From Bacteroidota bacterium (GTDB lineage Bacteria; Bacteroidota; Bacteroidia; JAHEXY01): DNA of 64,000 nucleotides. The notes under the pieces were generated by a model. It ran no database searches. It worked only from the letters and a program-made list of their open reading frames with translations, and was not told the DNA's origin. Made by a program: the position numbers and the translations under genes. The stretch covers positions 80,111-144,110 of the forward strand of contig JAHEXY010000012.1 of NCBI GenBank assembly GCA_023251875.1. The letters are read 5' to 3'. Shown here piece by piece: positions 1 to 55,975 of this stretch; position 1 is the stretch's first letter, and each line of letters opens with the position of its first letter.

Positions 1-3000
1 AGAATCCGGATCGGTAAAATTTGTAAACGTTACAGAAAAAGGACTACAGCTTGTATCGGCACCAATTTTATCGAAGTCAACATCAGGGCCAATAATAAAT
101 AAATCTGTATCAGGAATAAGCGTAAGAACACAAGTAATAGAATCTCCAAGAGCAAAATTAAGAGAATCTTCAAGAATTAATACCGGAATATAAGAGCCTG
201 CTTGGTTGTATGTGTGTGTAATAGTGTCTTTCGCGTATGAAGAACTTCCATCACCAAATATCCATGTAAATGTAGCAGCATTATAAATATCATACGGCAT
301 AAAAGTTACTTCAAGAGGTGCACAACCATCTTTAGGATTGTAATCAAAATTGCCCAAGGGGCCATCCACTTTTACATATTTTGGAATACTTAAGGTATCA
401 AGGCAACCCACAGCATCTTTTACTATTAGTGTTACATCATAAGTACCGGATGTATTATAAACATGTGAAAAGGTATCGGCATCGGCATACGAATTAAAAG
501 TATATTTTACACCGTCACCAAAATCATAATACCAAGTGGAAACCGTTGATGAAGTATCTACAAAAGTTCCAAAAAATGGAGGGCAATTATTATTAAGGTC
601 TGTTATATAAAATCCGGCATAAGGTCTGCGAATATCCACTTTTTTTGTAGTAGTACTATCGCAACCATTAGCATCAATGGCGTATAAGGTAACGTTGAAA
701 ATTGTATCTGAATTAATTGTATAATGATGAGTAGGGCTTACAGTTGACGAATCAAGTGGAGATCCATCTCCAAAATCCCAAACATAAGAAAGGTTGTAGC
801 CCGATGAGGTATTTGGAAAAACGATATTATTATCGTAACAATAAACTGAATTTGTTGAAAAACTTGTTGCCGGCTTGGTAACAATTACTTCATAACCTTT
901 GGTTATGTTTCCTGAGCAGTTATTAGTATCGGTAACAACCAGCGTAACAGGATAAGTACCTGCCCCCGTGAATATGTGTAATGGATCTTGTATAGTATCG
1001 GTATTACCATCTCCAAAATTCCAATTCCATGCTACAATTGGCGCATCTCCTTGTTTTGAAGTATCTATAAAATTAATAGGTAAAGGAGGACAACCTGTTA
1101 GGGAATCTTGTTGGTAATAGGCTTTGGGGGTATCATAAATTCTAACTACATCTTTTAATGTAAGGGTATCTATACATCCGGTACCTGCCCCTACCGTTAC
1201 CAATCGAATTGAAAACAAACCTGCTGTATCATAGGTATGATAAGGTGCAGAATAAGTTCCACCAAAACTACTATCTATACCAATAAATAGTGTATCATAG
1301 GAGTCATTGAGATATGAATTATAAACCGCATCAAAATTATAATAATTAGGATAAAAATTATACCAATCAGATGGCAAAGTCCCATCTCCAAAATACCATC
1401 CCCAATAACTTAATCCTTCATTCGCAGATGATGTATTTGTAATTGTAAAGGGAGATGGATTACATCCTGTAAGAGGGGTTGTATCAATACTAACAGAAAT
1501 ATCAATATTTGAAATAAAAACTGTTGCAGATGATTGATGCACGCATTTTGACGAATCATTGGTAACCGTTAAATTAATGGTATACAAACCGGGTAAAGTA
1601 TACGTATGCTGAGGAGGAATACTATCTGTAGATGTATCACTAACACCTGAACTTGGGTCGCCAAAATCCCAAAGATATTCATCTGCCCCTTCTGACATAT
1701 CCGTTAATGTAACGGTATAAGGTGTATTTCGCTCACAAAAATTACTTGGAGAACTTAAAAAGATGGCTTTAGGAAGGTTCACATAAAAATAGGATGATCT
1801 ACTTACCGTATCTCCGGGGCAACCATTAAACAATGCAACATGGGATATTCCAAAATAAGCAGTATCTATCGTCCAAACGGTTAATAAATCTTTATTATAA
1901 TAATCAGGAGATGATGAAGGGCTTGGATAAAAATAGCTTGAATCTTTTCCTAAAGCATAGCCCCATGACCAACCATTGGCATAAGAACTTGAGGAATCAA
2001 ATACTTCCAAATCTCCTGCATAACAAATTGTAGTATCTACTATATAAAAACCCGTTACCGGTGGAATTCCGGCAACAATTATAACGTTATATGATTCTGT
2101 ACATCCCCCTGCATCAATAAAAGAAAAAGAAACATAAAATGTTCCCGTATCGTTGTATACATGAAATGGGTTTTGTAGAGATGAAGTATTATTAGATCCC
2201 GATGTAGGGTCTCCAAAATTCCATGACCAACTTACAAAATTTTCATTTGACCAACTTTGATCGCTAAAATTTACCGTAAGAGGAATACAACCTGAAATTT
2301 TATCTTGTGTAAAAATCGCATAAGGTTTATTATTATTGATGTAATCATATTTTACAAGCGTATCTACACAGCTATTGGTATCTGTAACAATTAATTTTAC
2401 AGTAAAAATTCCAGCCGTTGAATCGTATGTATGCGTATAAACAGAATCTGTATTATCTAAACCAAATGTATCTTTTCCGAGTGACTGCTCCGGATTATCA
2501 ACATCCCATTGCCAAGCAGCAGCACCTGGCGTATTATCGGTAAAAGTAGCAGAAAAAGGTTGCGAACAAGCTGTTTGATCATCAACAGAAAAACTGGCAA
2601 CAGGCAATGGATATACAATTATGCTTTTTACTAATGTATCTGCACATCCTAAATTTGTACTCGATGAAAGTGTAACGGTATAAGAACCTGTACTAGCATA
2701 TGTATGAGATGGATTTTGGGCAGTAGAGGTTTGCCCATCACCAAAATCCCAATTCCAATTATTGGGGCTTGGTAAAGATAAATCATTAAATGTAATTTGG
2801 GTATTAAGGCAAGCTGCTGTTGCACTCAAATTAAAATTGGCACTAAAGGTAGTTATCGTTACTGTATAAGGGCCATAATTATTTGCACAACCGGTAGCAT
2901 CCATTCCTGTTAAATAAATATTGTAAGTACCAAAAGCTACATAAGTATGCGATGGATTCGTTTGTGTGGATGTATCTCCATCACCAAAATCCCAAGTAAA

Positions 3001-3669
3001 AGTTAAACCACTTGCTGAATTATTAATTAAAGTAATTGTATAGGGTATTGTGCACGATAGGTTTCCTGAAGCCGTAAAAGTAACCGAAGGCAAACTTTGA
3101 ACACTAATATAATTTGAAACCACTTTTTTCTTCGAACATCCCAAACTATCCATTACCTCTAATGCAACTTGATATGTACCAACTGAATTATACGTATGGC
3201 TAGGATTTTGTTGGGTAGAATAGCTTCCATCTCCAAAATCCCAATTCCATGTTGCAAGAGCTCCATTACCTAAAGCCGTTTGATCAGTAAAATTTACTGC
3301 CAGGGGAACACAGCCCCCCACAACATCAGAAGTAAATTTTGGATTGGGTAATTTAAGTATTGCAATATATGCAGACTTAGCTACAGTATTTTTATTTCCA
3401 TTTATATCTGTTACCGTTAAAGTAACCGTATACGAACCCGAAACGCTATAAAACGTAGAAGGATTTTGAAAAGTAGAGGTATTGCCATCTCCAAAATCCC
3501 AATTCCATGCCACAGGACTTCCCGTTGAAAGATCAGTAAAGGTAACGGCTAAATAACCACAACCCGAATCTGCATTTGAAGTGAAATTAGCAGAAACCTG
3601 CGCCTTTAATGCAAAAGAGAAAAAGATAAAAATAAAAAATGCTACTAAATAGTGTATGAATTGCTTCAT
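1..3669 (-). CDS. PKD-repeat secreted surface protein, C-terminus beyond window
   Basis: The reading frame stays open from an ATG at 3669 to the first base of the window (1223 codons), so the C-terminus is missing. The protein starts with a signal peptide (residues 1-23, hydrophobic core ending in ALKAQ) and continues as tandem PKD domains of roughly 80-90 residues. The WxFGDG motif or a close variant recurs at least eleven times, for example near 3490, 3230, 2990, 2750, 2210, 1660, 1385, 1010, 770, 510 and 255. PKD domains are extracellular beta-sandwich modules. Proteins of this build in Bacteroidota usually end in a T9SS sorting or gliding-motility C-terminal domain, which cannot be checked here. 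Its ATG overlaps the TGA of the upstream gene (ATGA), so the two are probably translationally coupled. Confidence 0.9.
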   Translation of the reverse strand, partial: MKQFIHYLVAFFIFIFFSFALKAQVSANFTSNADSGCGYLAVTFTDLSTGSPVAWNWDFGDGNTSTFQNPSTFYSVSGSYTVTLTVTDINGNKNTVAKSAYIAILKLPNPKFTSDVVGGCVPLAVNFTDQTALGNGALATWNWDFGDGSYSTQQNPSHTYNSVGTYQVALEVMDSLGCSKKKVVSNYISVQSLPSVTFTASGNLSCTIPYTITLINNSASGLTFTWDFGDGDTSTQTNPSHTYVAFGTYNIYLTGMDATGCANNYGPYTVTITTFSANFNLSATAACLNTQITFNDLSLPSPNNWNWDFGDGQTSTAQNPSHTYASTGSYTVTLSSSTNLGCADTLVKSIIVYPLPVASFSVDDQTACSQPFSATFTDNTPGAAAWQWDVDNPEQSLGKDTFGLDNTDSVYTHTYDSTAGIFTVKLIVTDTNSCVDTLVKYDYINNNKPYAIFTQDKISGCIPLTVNFSDQSWSNENFVSWSWNFGDPTSGSNNTSSLQNPFHVYNDTGTFYVSFSFIDAGGCTESYNVIIVAGIPPVTGFYIVDTTICYAGDLEVFDSSSSYANGWSWGYALGKDSSYFYPSPSSSPDYYNKDLLTVWTIDTAYFGISHVALFNGCPGDTVSRSSYFYVNLPKAIFLSSPSNFCERNTPYTVTLTDMSEGADEYLWDFGDPSSGVSDTSTDSIPPQHTYTLPGLYTINLTVTNDSSKCVHQSSATVFISNIDISVSIDTTPLTGCNPSPFTITNTSSANEGLSYWGWYFGDGTLPSDWYNFYPNYYNFDAVYNSYLNDSYDTLFIGIDSSFGGTYSAPYHTYDTAGLFSIRLVTVGAGTGCIDTLTLKDVVRIYDTPKAYYQQDSLTGCPPLPINFIDTSKQGDAPIVAWNWNFGDGNTDTIQDPLHIFTGAGTYPVTLVVTDTNNCSGNITKGYEVIVTKPATSFSTNSVYCYDNNIVFPNTSSGYNLSYVWDFGDGSPLDSSTVSPTHHYTINSDTIFNVTLYAIDANGCDSTTTKKVDIRRPYAGFYITDLNNNCPPFFGTFVDTSSTVSTWYYDFGDGVKYTFNSYADADTFSHVYNTSGTYDVTLIVKDAVGCLDTLSIPKYVKVDGPLGNFDYNPKDGCAPLEVTFMPYDIYNAATFTWIFGDGSSSYAKDTITHTYNQAGSYIPVLILEDSLNFALGDSITCVLTLIPDTDLFIIGPDVDFDKIGADTSCSPFSVTFTNFTDPDS

Positions 3670-5027: not shown

Positions 5028-5750
5028 TTAAGATATTTTTATAGCACGAATCATTTCTCGCTTGCCGGGAGGTCCTTGTAATGTTTCAATTGTAAAACCA
5101 ATTTCTTTGAGCGTTCTCTTTATAATTCCTTTGGCACAATACGTAACTAAAATACCTCCTGCGTTTAGATGTAGAAATAATTTTTGAAATATTTCCTTTG
5201 TCCACATTTCGGGTTGTTTTTCAGGAGCAAATGCATCAAAGAAAATAATATCATACGTTTCTGATAATTGAATTTGTTGAAGTGTTTGATGAATTTTATG
5301 AATGCTAAAATTACTCGTAATTTCAGTAGGTTTATTCCATTCTGCAGAATGAATGTGTTTAAAAGCCCTCACCCCTAACCCCTCTCCCAAAGGAGAGGGG
5401 AAGCCCTTCGAATTGTCATTTTCAATATTTAATTGGGATGTATAATTTAATTGCTGAATTATTTCTTGTGGCAGGGGATATGCTTCAATTGTAGAATAAG
5501 CAATAGTAAAGTGGGGATATTCTAATCCTTTTAATAAAGTTAGGAGTGCGTTTAATCCTGTACCAAACCCAATTTCGAAAACATTGATATTTTTTGTGGG
5601 AGATAAATTACGAAAATACTCCAATCCATTTTTAATAAACACATGTTGCGATTCTTGAACAGCACCGTGTATAGAATGGTAATGTTCATTTAAATGGGGA
5701 AGAAAGAGGGTATGAGATTGATCTTTGGTAGTAACAATTTGATGGTACAT
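5028..5750 (-). CDS. mnmD: MnmD-like tRNA 5-methylaminomethyl-2-thiouridine methyltransferase
   Basis: This is a SAM-dependent methyltransferase of the MnmD/DUF752 family, which finishes the mnm5s2U34 wobble modification in tRNA. It is the stand-alone MnmD form without the MnmC oxidase domain. Visible motifs are the SAM loop FEIGFGTG (58-65), FFDAFAPEKQPEMW (170-183), YCAKG (204-208) and GPPGKREM (226-233). The 240 residues fit the family, except that residues ~116-130 (GFPSPLGEGLGVRAF) are encoded by an in-frame copy of the family A hairpin repeat, probably in a surface loop before the FKHIHSAEW segment. It starts 1 bp after suhB and is the last gene of the DUF4783-nadC-suhB-mnmD operon. Confidence 0.88.
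   Translation of the reverse strand: MYHQIVTTKDQSHTLFLPHLNEHYHSIHGAVQESQHVFIKNGLEYFRNLSPTKNINVFEIGFGTGLNALLTLLKGLEYPHFTIAYSTIEAYPLPQEIIQQLNYTSQLNIENDNSKGFPSPLGEGLGVRAFKHIHSAEWNKPTEITSNFSIHKIHQTLQQIQLSETYDIIFFDAFAPEKQPEMWTKEIFQKLFLHLNAGGILVTYCAKGIIKRTLKEIGFTIETLQGPPGKREMIRAIKIS
5365..5405. repeat. Family A hairpin repeat inside mnmD
   Basis: The sequence GCCCTCACCCCTAACC followed by CCTCTCCCAAAGGAGAGG is the same element found between genes at 36056, 41240 and 55865. Here it lies inside mnmD in frame and encodes about 15 residues without breaking the protein. Confidence 0.85.
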
Positions 5751-7946: not shown

Positions 7947-8420
7947 ATGAAGCTTAAACTAATAATGATTGGAAAAACAGATCAGGCCTATCTAAATGAG
8001 GGGATAGCCGAATACATGTCGAGACTTAAACATTATTTACCCACTGAGCTCATTATCATTCCCTCATTAAAAAACTGCAGGGGCTTAACTGCAAATCAAA
8101 TAAAACAGAAAGAAGGAGAACTGATATTAAAACAAGTAGGTAAAGGTGATACCGTACTATTATTAGATGAAAAGGGTAAACACTATACTTCAACCGAATT
8201 TTCTGCATTTATACAACAAAACATGAATCAAGGTATTCAGAATCTAGTTTTTGTTATTGGGGGAGCCTATGGATTTGGGCAAGAGGTTTATTTAAAATTT
8301 CCTTATAAGATTGCACTTTCTAAGATGACATTTTCTCATCAAATGGTACGATTATTTTTCATTGAACAACTATACAGGGCTATGACGATTATTAAGAATG
8401 AATCGTATCATCATGATTAA
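7947..8420 (+). CDS. rlmH: 23S rRNA pseudouridine-1915 N3-methyltransferase
   Basis: RlmH is a SPOUT (trefoil-knot) methyltransferase that acts on pseudouridine 1915 in helix 69 of 23S rRNA on assembled 70S ribosomes. The 157 residues are the full family length. The knot and SAM site are clear: VFVIGGAYGFG near 101-111 and the C-terminal SKMTFSHQMVRLFFIEQLYR. It is transcribed away from the nadC operon, a frequent pairing in this phylum, and converges on the glycosyltransferase at 8510 with a family B repeat between the two stop codons. Confidence 0.97.
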   Translation: MKLKLIMIGKTDQAYLNEGIAEYMSRLKHYLPTELIIIPSLKNCRGLTANQIKQKEGELILKQVGKGDTVLLLDEKGKHYTSTEFSAFIQQNMNQGIQNLVFVIGGAYGFGQEVYLKFPYKIALSKMTFSHQMVRLFFIEQLYRAMTIIKNESYHHD

Positions 8421-8427
8421 AACTAGT

Positions 8428-8508
8428 GGCTTTCTAAAAATTGTGTTTTTCATTTCCTCTCCCTACCCTCTCTTTGAGAGGGACAGAAATGATAATTTTC
8501 AGAAAGCC
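8428..8508. repeat. Family B inverted repeat, copy 1
   Basis: It has outer inverted ends GGCTTTCT and AGAAAGCC with AAAAATT/AATTTTC just inside, and an inner hairpin CCCTCTCTTTGAGAGGG. It fills the gap between the convergent rlmH and glycosyltransferase genes and could double as a bidirectional terminator. Relatives are at 35554 and 38541. Confidence 0.8.
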
Positions 8509-16026: not shown

Positions 16027-16090
16027 TGCCCTCATCCCATCCTTCCCGAAAAATCGGGACCGGTACTCCCAAGGGAGAAGGGGTGTTTGG
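16027..16090. repeat. Family A repeat with nested hairpin
   Basis: It matches the copy at 41240 (GCCCTCATCCCATCCTTC then TCCCAAGGGAGAAGG), but about 21 bp have been inserted at the stem shoulder. That insert carries its own hairpin CCCGAAAAATCGGG. It is a hairpin within a hairpin in a convergent gap. Confidence 0.7.
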
Positions 16091-16096
16091 ATTTAT

Positions 16097-34754: not shown

Positions 34755-35549
34755 ATGATCGAAAAGAAATTAATAAACTGTTTTGTTTTTTTATTTTATC
34801 TCTCTCTGTTGAATTCATGCAGCCCCGATGTGCTTGTGCCCTGCGAAAACGATGGATTAAAAATAGGTTTGCTATGCAAACAATATATATACCAAGGAGA
34901 TGAAGTTGTGGGCTATTACAATTACTATTACAATTCTCAAAATCAATTGGTGAAAAAGGCTTTGCAAAAAAGTAGCGGTATTGTTGTAAGAGAAGAAACC
35001 TACCAATACAATACTAAAAATCAAATTAGTGAATTAAATAAACATGATCAGAATAGCAATGTTGATAGCACATTTAAATTTTCATATAATACATTCGATA
35101 GTCTTTCAGAAAAAGAAATTTATGTTTCTAATGAATTAATTACCTATACTACTTATTCCTATAATAATTACAATCAAATAGCTTCATCAATAAATCATCT
35201 TGGTGATAGCATTTTATCCTTTACCAATTACAATTACTTATCAGATGGAAAAACTTATAAAATAACATCTTACTCTGCCGACACCAATATTACAGCATAT
35301 ACACTGTATGATTATTATACTAATAACATGCTTAAAATTGAATTTTATAAGGGAACTACCTTATCTGATTATCATATTTTAGAATACGAAAATGATACCC
35401 TTATAAAACTTTCTGAATTTAGTGCCGATCAATCTCTTAATGGGTATTATCAATATGAGTATGATAAATATAATAACATTAGTAAAATTTCATTTTATGA
35501 TGAGAGTGATGATTTGATTTATTATAACGAATACAAATATTATTATTGA
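34755..35549 (+). CDS. YD/RHS-like repeat lipoprotein
   Basis: A 264-residue lipoprotein with lipobox SLLNSC (cleavage at Cys22, CSPDVLVPC). The mature protein is a run of about nine short repeats rich in Tyr and Asn (YYNSQNQLVKKAL, YNTKNQISELNKH, YSYNNYNQIASSI, YEYDKYNNISKIS). These resemble single YD/RHS or MORN-like strands that wind into a beta-spiral. It is divergent from tonB. The role is unknown; it is probably surface-exposed and may bind carbohydrate or protein. Confidence 0.75.
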   Translation: MIEKKLINCFVFLFYLSLLNSCSPDVLVPCENDGLKIGLLCKQYIYQGDEVVGYYNYYYNSQNQLVKKALQKSSGIVVREETYQYNTKNQISELNKHDQNSNVDSTFKFSYNTFDSLSEKEIYVSNELITYTTYSYNNYNQIASSINHLGDSILSFTNYNYLSDGKTYKITSYSADTNITAYTLYDYYTNNMLKIEFYKGTTLSDYHILEYENDTLIKLSEFSADQSLNGYYQYEYDKYNNISKISFYDESDDLIYYNEYKYYY

Positions 35550-35553
35550 TGGG

Positions 35554-35631
35554 ATTTCTAAAAATTGTTTTGTTTTTCCCTCTCCCTACCCTCTCAAAGA
35601 GAGGGATAAAAATGATAATTTTTAGAAAGCT
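35554..35631. repeat. Family B inverted repeat, copy 2
   Basis: Ends TTTCTAAAAATT and AATTTTTAGAAA are perfect inverted repeats. The inner hairpin is CCCTCTCAAAGAGAGGG. It lies 4 bp after the lipoprotein stop. Confidence 0.85.
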
Positions 35632-36055: not shown

Positions 36056-36099
36056 CCTCACCCCATCCCTCTCCCAAAGGAGAGGGGGAGTTTGGAATT
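36056..36099. repeat. Family A hairpin repeat
   Basis: CCTCACCCCATCC followed by CTCTCCCAAAGGAGAGGGG and the AGTTTGGAATT tail shared with 55865. It lies between the receiver gene and the YaiO gene. Confidence 0.85.
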
Positions 36100-36127
36100 A
36101 ATAAATTTTAATTAATTCTATTTAGCA

Positions 36128-38503: not shown

Positions 38504-38540
38504 ATTTATTTCAATAAATTATAATCTTACTTTAAGGATT

Positions 38541-38615
38541 TTCTAAAAATTATTTTTTTATTTCCTCTCCCTTAATCCCTCTCAAAGAGAGGGACACAAA
38601 TAGTAATTTTTAGAA
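38541..38615. repeat. Family B inverted repeat, copy 3
   Basis: Ends TTCTAAAAATT and AATTTTTAGAA. The inner stem is CCCTCTCAAAGAGAGGG. It abuts the glycosyltransferase stop codon. Confidence 0.85.
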
Positions 38616-41239: not shown

Positions 41240-41285
41240 GCCCTCATCCCATCCTTCTCCCAAGGGAGAAGGAGAGTTTTGAATT
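41240..41285. repeat. Family A hairpin repeat
   Basis: GCCCTCATCCCATCC followed by TTCTCCCAAGGGAGAAGG, located between the CotH and HEAT genes. Confidence 0.85.
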
Positions 41286-41305
41286 TAAAAATAGTATCTA
41301 AATTT

Positions 41306-55817: not shown

Positions 55818-55864
55818 AGATTATATAAGTTAAACAACATATCAATAAATATTGATTTTTTTAT

Positions 55865-55908
55865 GCCCTCACCCTGTCCCTCTCCCAAAGGAGAGGGTAA
55901 GTTTGGAA
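55865..55908. repeat. Family A hairpin repeat
   Basis: GCCCTCACCCTGTCC followed by CTCTCCCAAAGGAGAGGG and an AGTTTGGAATT tail, in a convergent gap. Confidence 0.85.
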
Positions 55909-55975
55909 TTATTAATAATACATTAACTTATAGAAACTCTACTAATCAAAAATAATTTGGCTATAAAATTAGAAT

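Follow-up and report, generated by a model that had tools for sequence, protein, structure and literature searches.

What could have placed a hairpin repeat in frame in the middle of a tRNA methyltransferase gene? The question is raised by mnmD in a Bacteroidota genome, within the stretch of 64,000 nucleotides analysed here (the window). The reading favoured below is that the mnmD insert is probably a solo terminal repeat belonging to a family of mobile elements, whose full members consist of inverted ends and a DUF559 endonuclease gene. Features are collected in Table 1.

The insert in mnmD

The preliminary description had placed a hairpin repeat in frame within mnmD, and this is borne out: positions 5365-5400, inside the 240-aa minus-strand ORF, hold a C-rich tag (GCCCTCACCCCTAA) followed by a hairpin predicted at -18.1 kcal/mol, and encode the peptide GFPSPLGEGLGVR. 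The protein matches Pfam Methyltransf_30 and passes the NCBIfam MnmC2 model (198.6 bits, cut-off 136); a single mnmD was detected. Among 105 aligned MnmD homologues, nearly all from Bacteroidota, the segment from LNY to HxxxW spans 19-31 residues (mode 24-25) as against 39 here, giving an insert of about 14-15 residues, with boundaries that range over roughly 42-51 nt because even the nearest homologues are only about 55% identical. The preliminary description had asked whether some 15 residues are missing from relatives, and they are: the insert is found in 0 of the 105 homologues, and the peptide is missing from all 29 of the class-level relatives displayed.

Table 1. Positions of the features discussed (window coordinates unless a locus is given)
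Feature	Position	Strand	Basis or repeat family
mnmD, interrupted gene (MnmC2-type tRNA methyltransferase), 240 aa	5028..5750	-	ORF, domain matches and structure
Codons of the inserted peptide with its margins, GFPSPLGEGLGVRAF (residues 116-130)	5361..5405	-	alignment; low-confidence model loop
C-rich outer tag GCCCTCACCCCTAA; read after the hairpin on the coding strand, the order seen at the right end of DUF559 elements	5365..5378	+	
Hairpin CCCCTCTCC-CAAA-GGAGAGGGG	5379..5400	+	sequence, folding prediction
Family A copy, hairpin loop expanded by added sequence	16028..16094	+	repeat family D8
Intergenic family A copy	36056..36115	+	repeat family D3
Intergenic family A copy	41242..41301	+	repeat family D3
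Intergenic family A copy, within longer TATATAAGTTAA...TTAACTTATA inverted-repeat context	55867..55926	+	repeat family D3
MetH with 141-aa DUF559 insert and shorter repeat-derived insert HPSLALPEGEGRVQEKN	L226:913-3312 (G000:C11 ~753.9-757 kb)		

Might the peptide be a lineage-specific loop extension whose likeness to the repeat is due to chance or convergence? Loop length does vary among the homologues, over the 19-31 residues given above. Against this, 36 nt match a high-copy repeat in both hairpin and tag, and some 20 further proteins encoded in the genome have peptides of the same type; a 35-nt pattern taken from the mnmD copy has one match in the window, with 0.00 expected from shuffles. 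The DNA match refutes a chance or convergent extension for practical purposes, and we consider it hardly credible.

The mnmD subtype of the repeat (CTAACCCCTCTCC) is a minority one, with just two occurrences in 4.8 Mb, and its tag is 1-2 nt longer than those of the three intergenic copies in the window. AAGCCCT stands on either side of the mnmD copy, at a spacing of 38 nt that would be frame-breaking if this were a target duplication.

An AlphaFold model of MnmD, built on an alignment of 60 rows, has a mean pLDDT of 94.6 and fits the MnmC2 crystal structures 2qy6 and 3vyw; confidence falls to 62 in block 111-120, the loop between helices 103-106 and 125-135. Modelling had been proposed as a way of locating the extra residues, and they do coincide with this low-confidence loop of a confident MnmC2 fold, supporting the view that a loop insertion would be tolerated. 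Together, the confident fold, the floppy loop, the sole mnmD and the intact domain matches make it plausible that function is kept despite the insert, and we infer that MnmD remains active.

Copies elsewhere in the genome

The copies at 36056, 41242 and 55867 were recovered as a single repeat family. The hairpin core CCTCTCCNNNNGGAGAGG has 45 exact copies in the genome, besides more diverged ones, and 123 copies of the repeat (family A) were collected by pattern searches and from short stretches. Of these, 23 are in frame, in 21 long reading frames and away from the frame ends, on the coding strand mostly in the order hairpin then tag (17 of 23). Their hosts, for most of which domain identity was verified, are MnmD, RlmD-like, SufD, a copper P-ATPase, MiaB, TsaB, KsgA, a class IV aminotransferase, BioF/KBL-like, ComEC, RsmF, DUF2851 (two), alpha-2-macroglobulin, an NRPS, an M28-type peptidase, four related RHS-like proteins, one unidentified protein and MetH. 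The repeat had been described as lying otherwise between genes, which is wrong: since at least 21 long frames of this genome hold in-frame copies, mnmD is no exception to an intergenic repeat.

The copy in the P-ATPase comes directly after DKTGT and that in KsgA directly ahead of the NFPYN motif, and solved MiaB and KsgA structures have alignment gaps opposite the repeat. TsaB is generally essential in bacteria; the one with a double insert is the sole TsaB detected in the genome. In the family of proteins with RHS-like motifs (L017, L169, L176, L196), repeat peptides stand at similar positions across several paralogues.

The surroundings of the copies vary. Some intergenic ones lie inside a larger palindrome, TATATAAGTTAA...TTAACTTATATA (window 55831-55926; L007, L015, L020, L021, L029), which suggests that the two make up a composite element, and others (L011, L031) lie within a MITE-like frame with ends GGGCAGTTCTAAAAATT, related to the inverted-repeat frame of the second hairpin family described below. 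Hairpin loops containing further sequence, at L158, L162, L215 and the window copy assigned to D8, encode peptides such as SPLGEPVPFFREGQSEG and SPLGESLSRTWFGSRGEG and are nested insertions inside the repeat. The window also holds a second family of GC-rich hairpins (8416-8507, 35539-35630, 38531-38615) with TTTCTAAAAATT...AATTTTTAGAAA inverted repeats around them, and, in its first gene, a repeat segment with a period of about 250 bp (CCATCTCCAAAATCCCAATTCCATG, 762-3522).

Elements with a DUF559 gene

One of the in-frame copies closes a 141-aa insert in the MetH of the same genome; this insert includes a DUF559 domain, and its flanks are adjacent in E. coli MetH (404/405). DUF559 was searched for in 295 class-level genomes and 32 loci were inspected, these being the best-scoring ones, one per genome, and not a random draw. 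In 20 of the 32 the domain is in frame within a larger protein: MetH (two sites), LeuRS (two sites), Acs, an IleRS-type synthetase and HsdR. In one of the remaining 12 a glutamine-amidotransferase (PurL-like) protein has the domain at its end, and 11 are standalone genes.

The in-frame domains (L229-L257), which occur in many Bacteroidota, are bordered by hairpin-repeat peptides. GC-rich hairpins occur at the DUF559 edges in 25 of the 32 loci, compared with 2 of 62 same-locus controls, and inverted flanks (z>5) surround the domain in 20 of 32, compared with 0 of 62. The tag points outward in 27 of the 31 DUF559 flanks that score at least 30 against the mnmD repeat. In one metH element (G219), whose left end reads GACCTCACCCCTAACCCCTCTCCGAAGGAGAGGGG where mnmD has GCCCTCACCCCTAACCCCTCTCCCAAAGGAGAGGGG, a 33-nt end (CCTCACCCCTAACCCCTCTCCGAAGGAGAGGGG) aligns to the mnmD repeat with a score of 56 of 72. 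This is the best DUF559-element end; the best copy from the genome itself scores 60, so the two sources are about equally similar and similarity alone is silent on where the mnmD copy came from. A match to a group II intron domain (68 bits, L230:3113-3187) adjoins the same metH locus.

Across genomes, DUF559 is present in 50 of 61 that bear the hairpin and in 88 of 234 that do not (Fisher p=4e-10, uncorrected for kinship), leaving 11 hairpin-bearing genomes from which it is missing. DUF559 proteins without these repeats exist, and strong flanks are absent at L231 and L236. Two standalone genes, L227 and L228, have inverted copies of other C-rich hairpins on both sides (CCCCCGCTGGCGGGGG; CCCCCTTCAAAGGGGG), and L226 has a related hairpin subtype on one side only; a full element with the exact mnmD subtype was not found among the three DUF559 genes of the genome itself.

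Are whole nuclease domains tolerated in such proteins? In 9 of 9 genomes the LeuRS carrying DUF559 is the sole LeuRS detected (in two of these a contig end or a frame break divides the gene), from which it follows that the domain has to be tolerated there. An AlphaFold prediction of the metH segment including the DUF559 insert was of poor quality (mean pLDDT 57.4) and is left out of the argument.

One possibility is that the repeat is an ordinary REP- or RPE-like palindrome moved by a RAYT (Y1 tyrosine) transposase, its link to DUF559 being a mere by-product of the build-up of both in genomes rich in repeats. Intragenic REPs in frame are on record in several phyla (PMC3733652), which would fit, and this genome carries seven Y1_Tnp genes; but no complete family A copy occurs within 1.5 kb of any of the seven (there is one weak tag match), six look like a subclass described as usually without terminal structures (PMC6006769), family A has no fixed GTAG or CGTC tag, and its hairpins sit, inverted, directly at the edges of the DUF559 domain. 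Since the repeat does not flank the Y1_Tnp genes that the genome has, RAYT mobilisation was rejected and seems unlikely.

Empty, occupied and remnant sites

Different states of one site were compared at metH site 1 across a genus of 36 genomes (that around G020). The site is empty in many of them, e.g., ALSDFVNPNNLDYIGSFALT, and others have a full DUF559 element there, in frame; in a few there is an end-like remnant, short and in frame (L246, SLSFGEGPGVRS; L291; L304), and at L306 the DUF559 element has an internal deletion. At the acs site, two families have the full element (L249/L257) and a third a solo end of 15 residues (L322). A DUF559 tree sets the in-frame copies apart from most standalone ones (0.95), places two lineages at metH site 1 inside the one genus, and groups copies across different host genes: lineages switch genes. 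As far as comparison of sequences goes, the association of repeat and DUF559, the polymorphism of the sites and the tolerance of inserts are established. The earlier proposal that the repeat moves as a unit holds at metH and acs, though it does not follow from mnmD alone.

Another possibility is that the repeats are passive landing sites for DUF559 elements among others, with family A spreading in some other way (e.g., by hairpin template switching) and the mnmD copy never having been linked to a nuclease. Certain insertion sequences do target REPs (PMC3733652), some family A copies lie within other inverted-repeat, MITE-like contexts, and solo copies in this genome are far more numerous than DUF559 genes. 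Landing sites should precede the elements, yet most empty metH and acs sites are without a pre-existing intact repeat, and gene copies free of DUF559 at either place (metH site 1, acs) have an end-like remnant or else no repeat at all; moreover, the element ends face outward on both sides, and one metH copy (L306) is a DUF559 element with an internal deletion. This explanation appears doubtful.

A model for the mnmD insert

Under the favoured reading, that of a solo terminal repeat, a complete element would consist of two outward-facing inverted ends, each a C-rich tag plus a hairpin GACCTCACCCCTAACCCCTCTCC-NNN-GGAGAGGGG, around a gene for DUF559, a putative Vsr-like endonuclease of the PD-(D/E)XK type; likeness to Vsr is on record for a DUF559 protein of Caulobacter (PMC12907096). 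The element would enter conserved genes in frame, so that the host protein is translated with the nuclease as an additional domain, and would never be spliced out, being tolerated because of its position in loops and because its ends are free of stops whichever way round they lie. If the nuclease were lost internally, or if a single end moved in trans, a peptide of about 10-20 residues would remain, in mnmD GFPSPLGEGLGVR. The nuclease would presumably cleave the target DNA, drive copying and so move the repeat; spread of solo ends in trans may occur as well. The mnmD locus has one element end and is missing the second, inverted end and the nuclease gene; with one end only, it is termed a solo end and not a member of the full elements, and could be either a remnant (scar) or a non-autonomous insertion.

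We also think it somewhat probable that these loci represent an undescribed class of Bacteroidota mobile element, with a Vsr-like DUF559 gene between hairpin ends in inverted orientation, which would home into conserved genes without shifting their frame, be translated inside the host enzyme with no splicing, and decay to short peptide scars of the MnmD type.

Comparison with known systems

Rickettsia palindromic elements (RPE) reportedly go back to Ogata et al. (2000, 2002). They are short palindromes inserted without a frameshift into a wide range of unrelated housekeeping proteins, typically in unstructured segments (PMC2996958, PMC3733652), and in-frame palindromic repeats are on record in Rickettsia, Wolbachia and several REP families (PMC3733652, PMC2996958). 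Family A resembles the RPE and the coding palindromes of Wolbachia in being a palindrome in frame inside conserved protein genes; it differs from the RPE in sequence and phylum, in lacking the CGTC tag (CGTC/GACG lies within 100 nt of just 5 of the 123 copies), and in having a candidate autonomous partner, the DUF559 element, for which a single site shows both full and remnant states. A curated RPE model (NCBIfam) had no match in MnmD and nine other proteins. The parallel with Rickettsia drawn in the preliminary description therefore holds for in-frame insertion into loops of housekeeping proteins and fails for the CGTC tag and a nearby RAYT, the repeat resembling instead the terminal repeat of a DUF559 element.

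Like the REP/RAYT systems (GTAG, CGTC; Di Nocera 2013, PMC3733652), family A is a high-copy palindrome of 20-40 bp, partly intragenic, with tag and hairpin; unlike them, it has neither an invariant GTAG or CGTC tag nor an adjoining RAYT, and its partner gene is a Vsr-like nuclease. GTAG/CTAC is near 34 of the 123 copies, is not fixed and is missing from the family A consensus. With inteins and homing-endonuclease elements the DUF559 inserts share an in-frame nuclease domain, a preference for conserved housekeeping proteins, recurrent sites and both empty and occupied alleles, but they have terminal hairpin repeats and leave peptide remnants, and no Hint or splicing domain was found: Pfam searches of the metH, acs, IleRS-type and hsdR inserts gave only DUF559/MTES_1575. 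As with MITEs, short non-autonomous copies are related to the ends of a bigger gene-bearing element, although the mnmD copy is a single end and not two inverted ends.

A further resemblance is to whalefall-1, which Rfam (RF01762) lists as a candidate non-coding RNA and which comes from the metagenome of a whale fall (PMC2864571). Full-length matches, all below the gathering score, fall at window 5365-5401, L007, L015 and L232, and in this sub-threshold alignment a hairpin is followed by AGGGUGAGGRC, as at the right end of the family A repeat. Whalefall-1 may thus be a repeat of the family A kind and not a non-coding RNA.

In-frame palindromic inserts, those of REP families and of Rickettsia, are already known and come nearest to what is seen here; for in-frame DUF559 elements, the titles and abstracts of the 14 papers naming DUF559 in one literature collection describe neither repeats nor in-frame insertion, an absence that is no proof. 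In the same collection, SPLGEGLGVR-type peptides turned up in an unrelated HDV study alone.

Implications

To our knowledge, what moves protein-coding palindromic repeats has been unsettled since the Rickettsia reports. A repeat that matches the ends of a nuclease-bearing element, with empty, full and remnant alleles within one genus, makes the question of mobilisation directly testable. If the proposed reading is true, enzymes such as LeuRS and MetH can contain an entire nuclease domain that is never spliced out, and many Bacteroidota proteins would bear scars of mobile elements in the form of short insertions in loops, with consequences for annotation, for structural work and for models of how proteins gain sequence.
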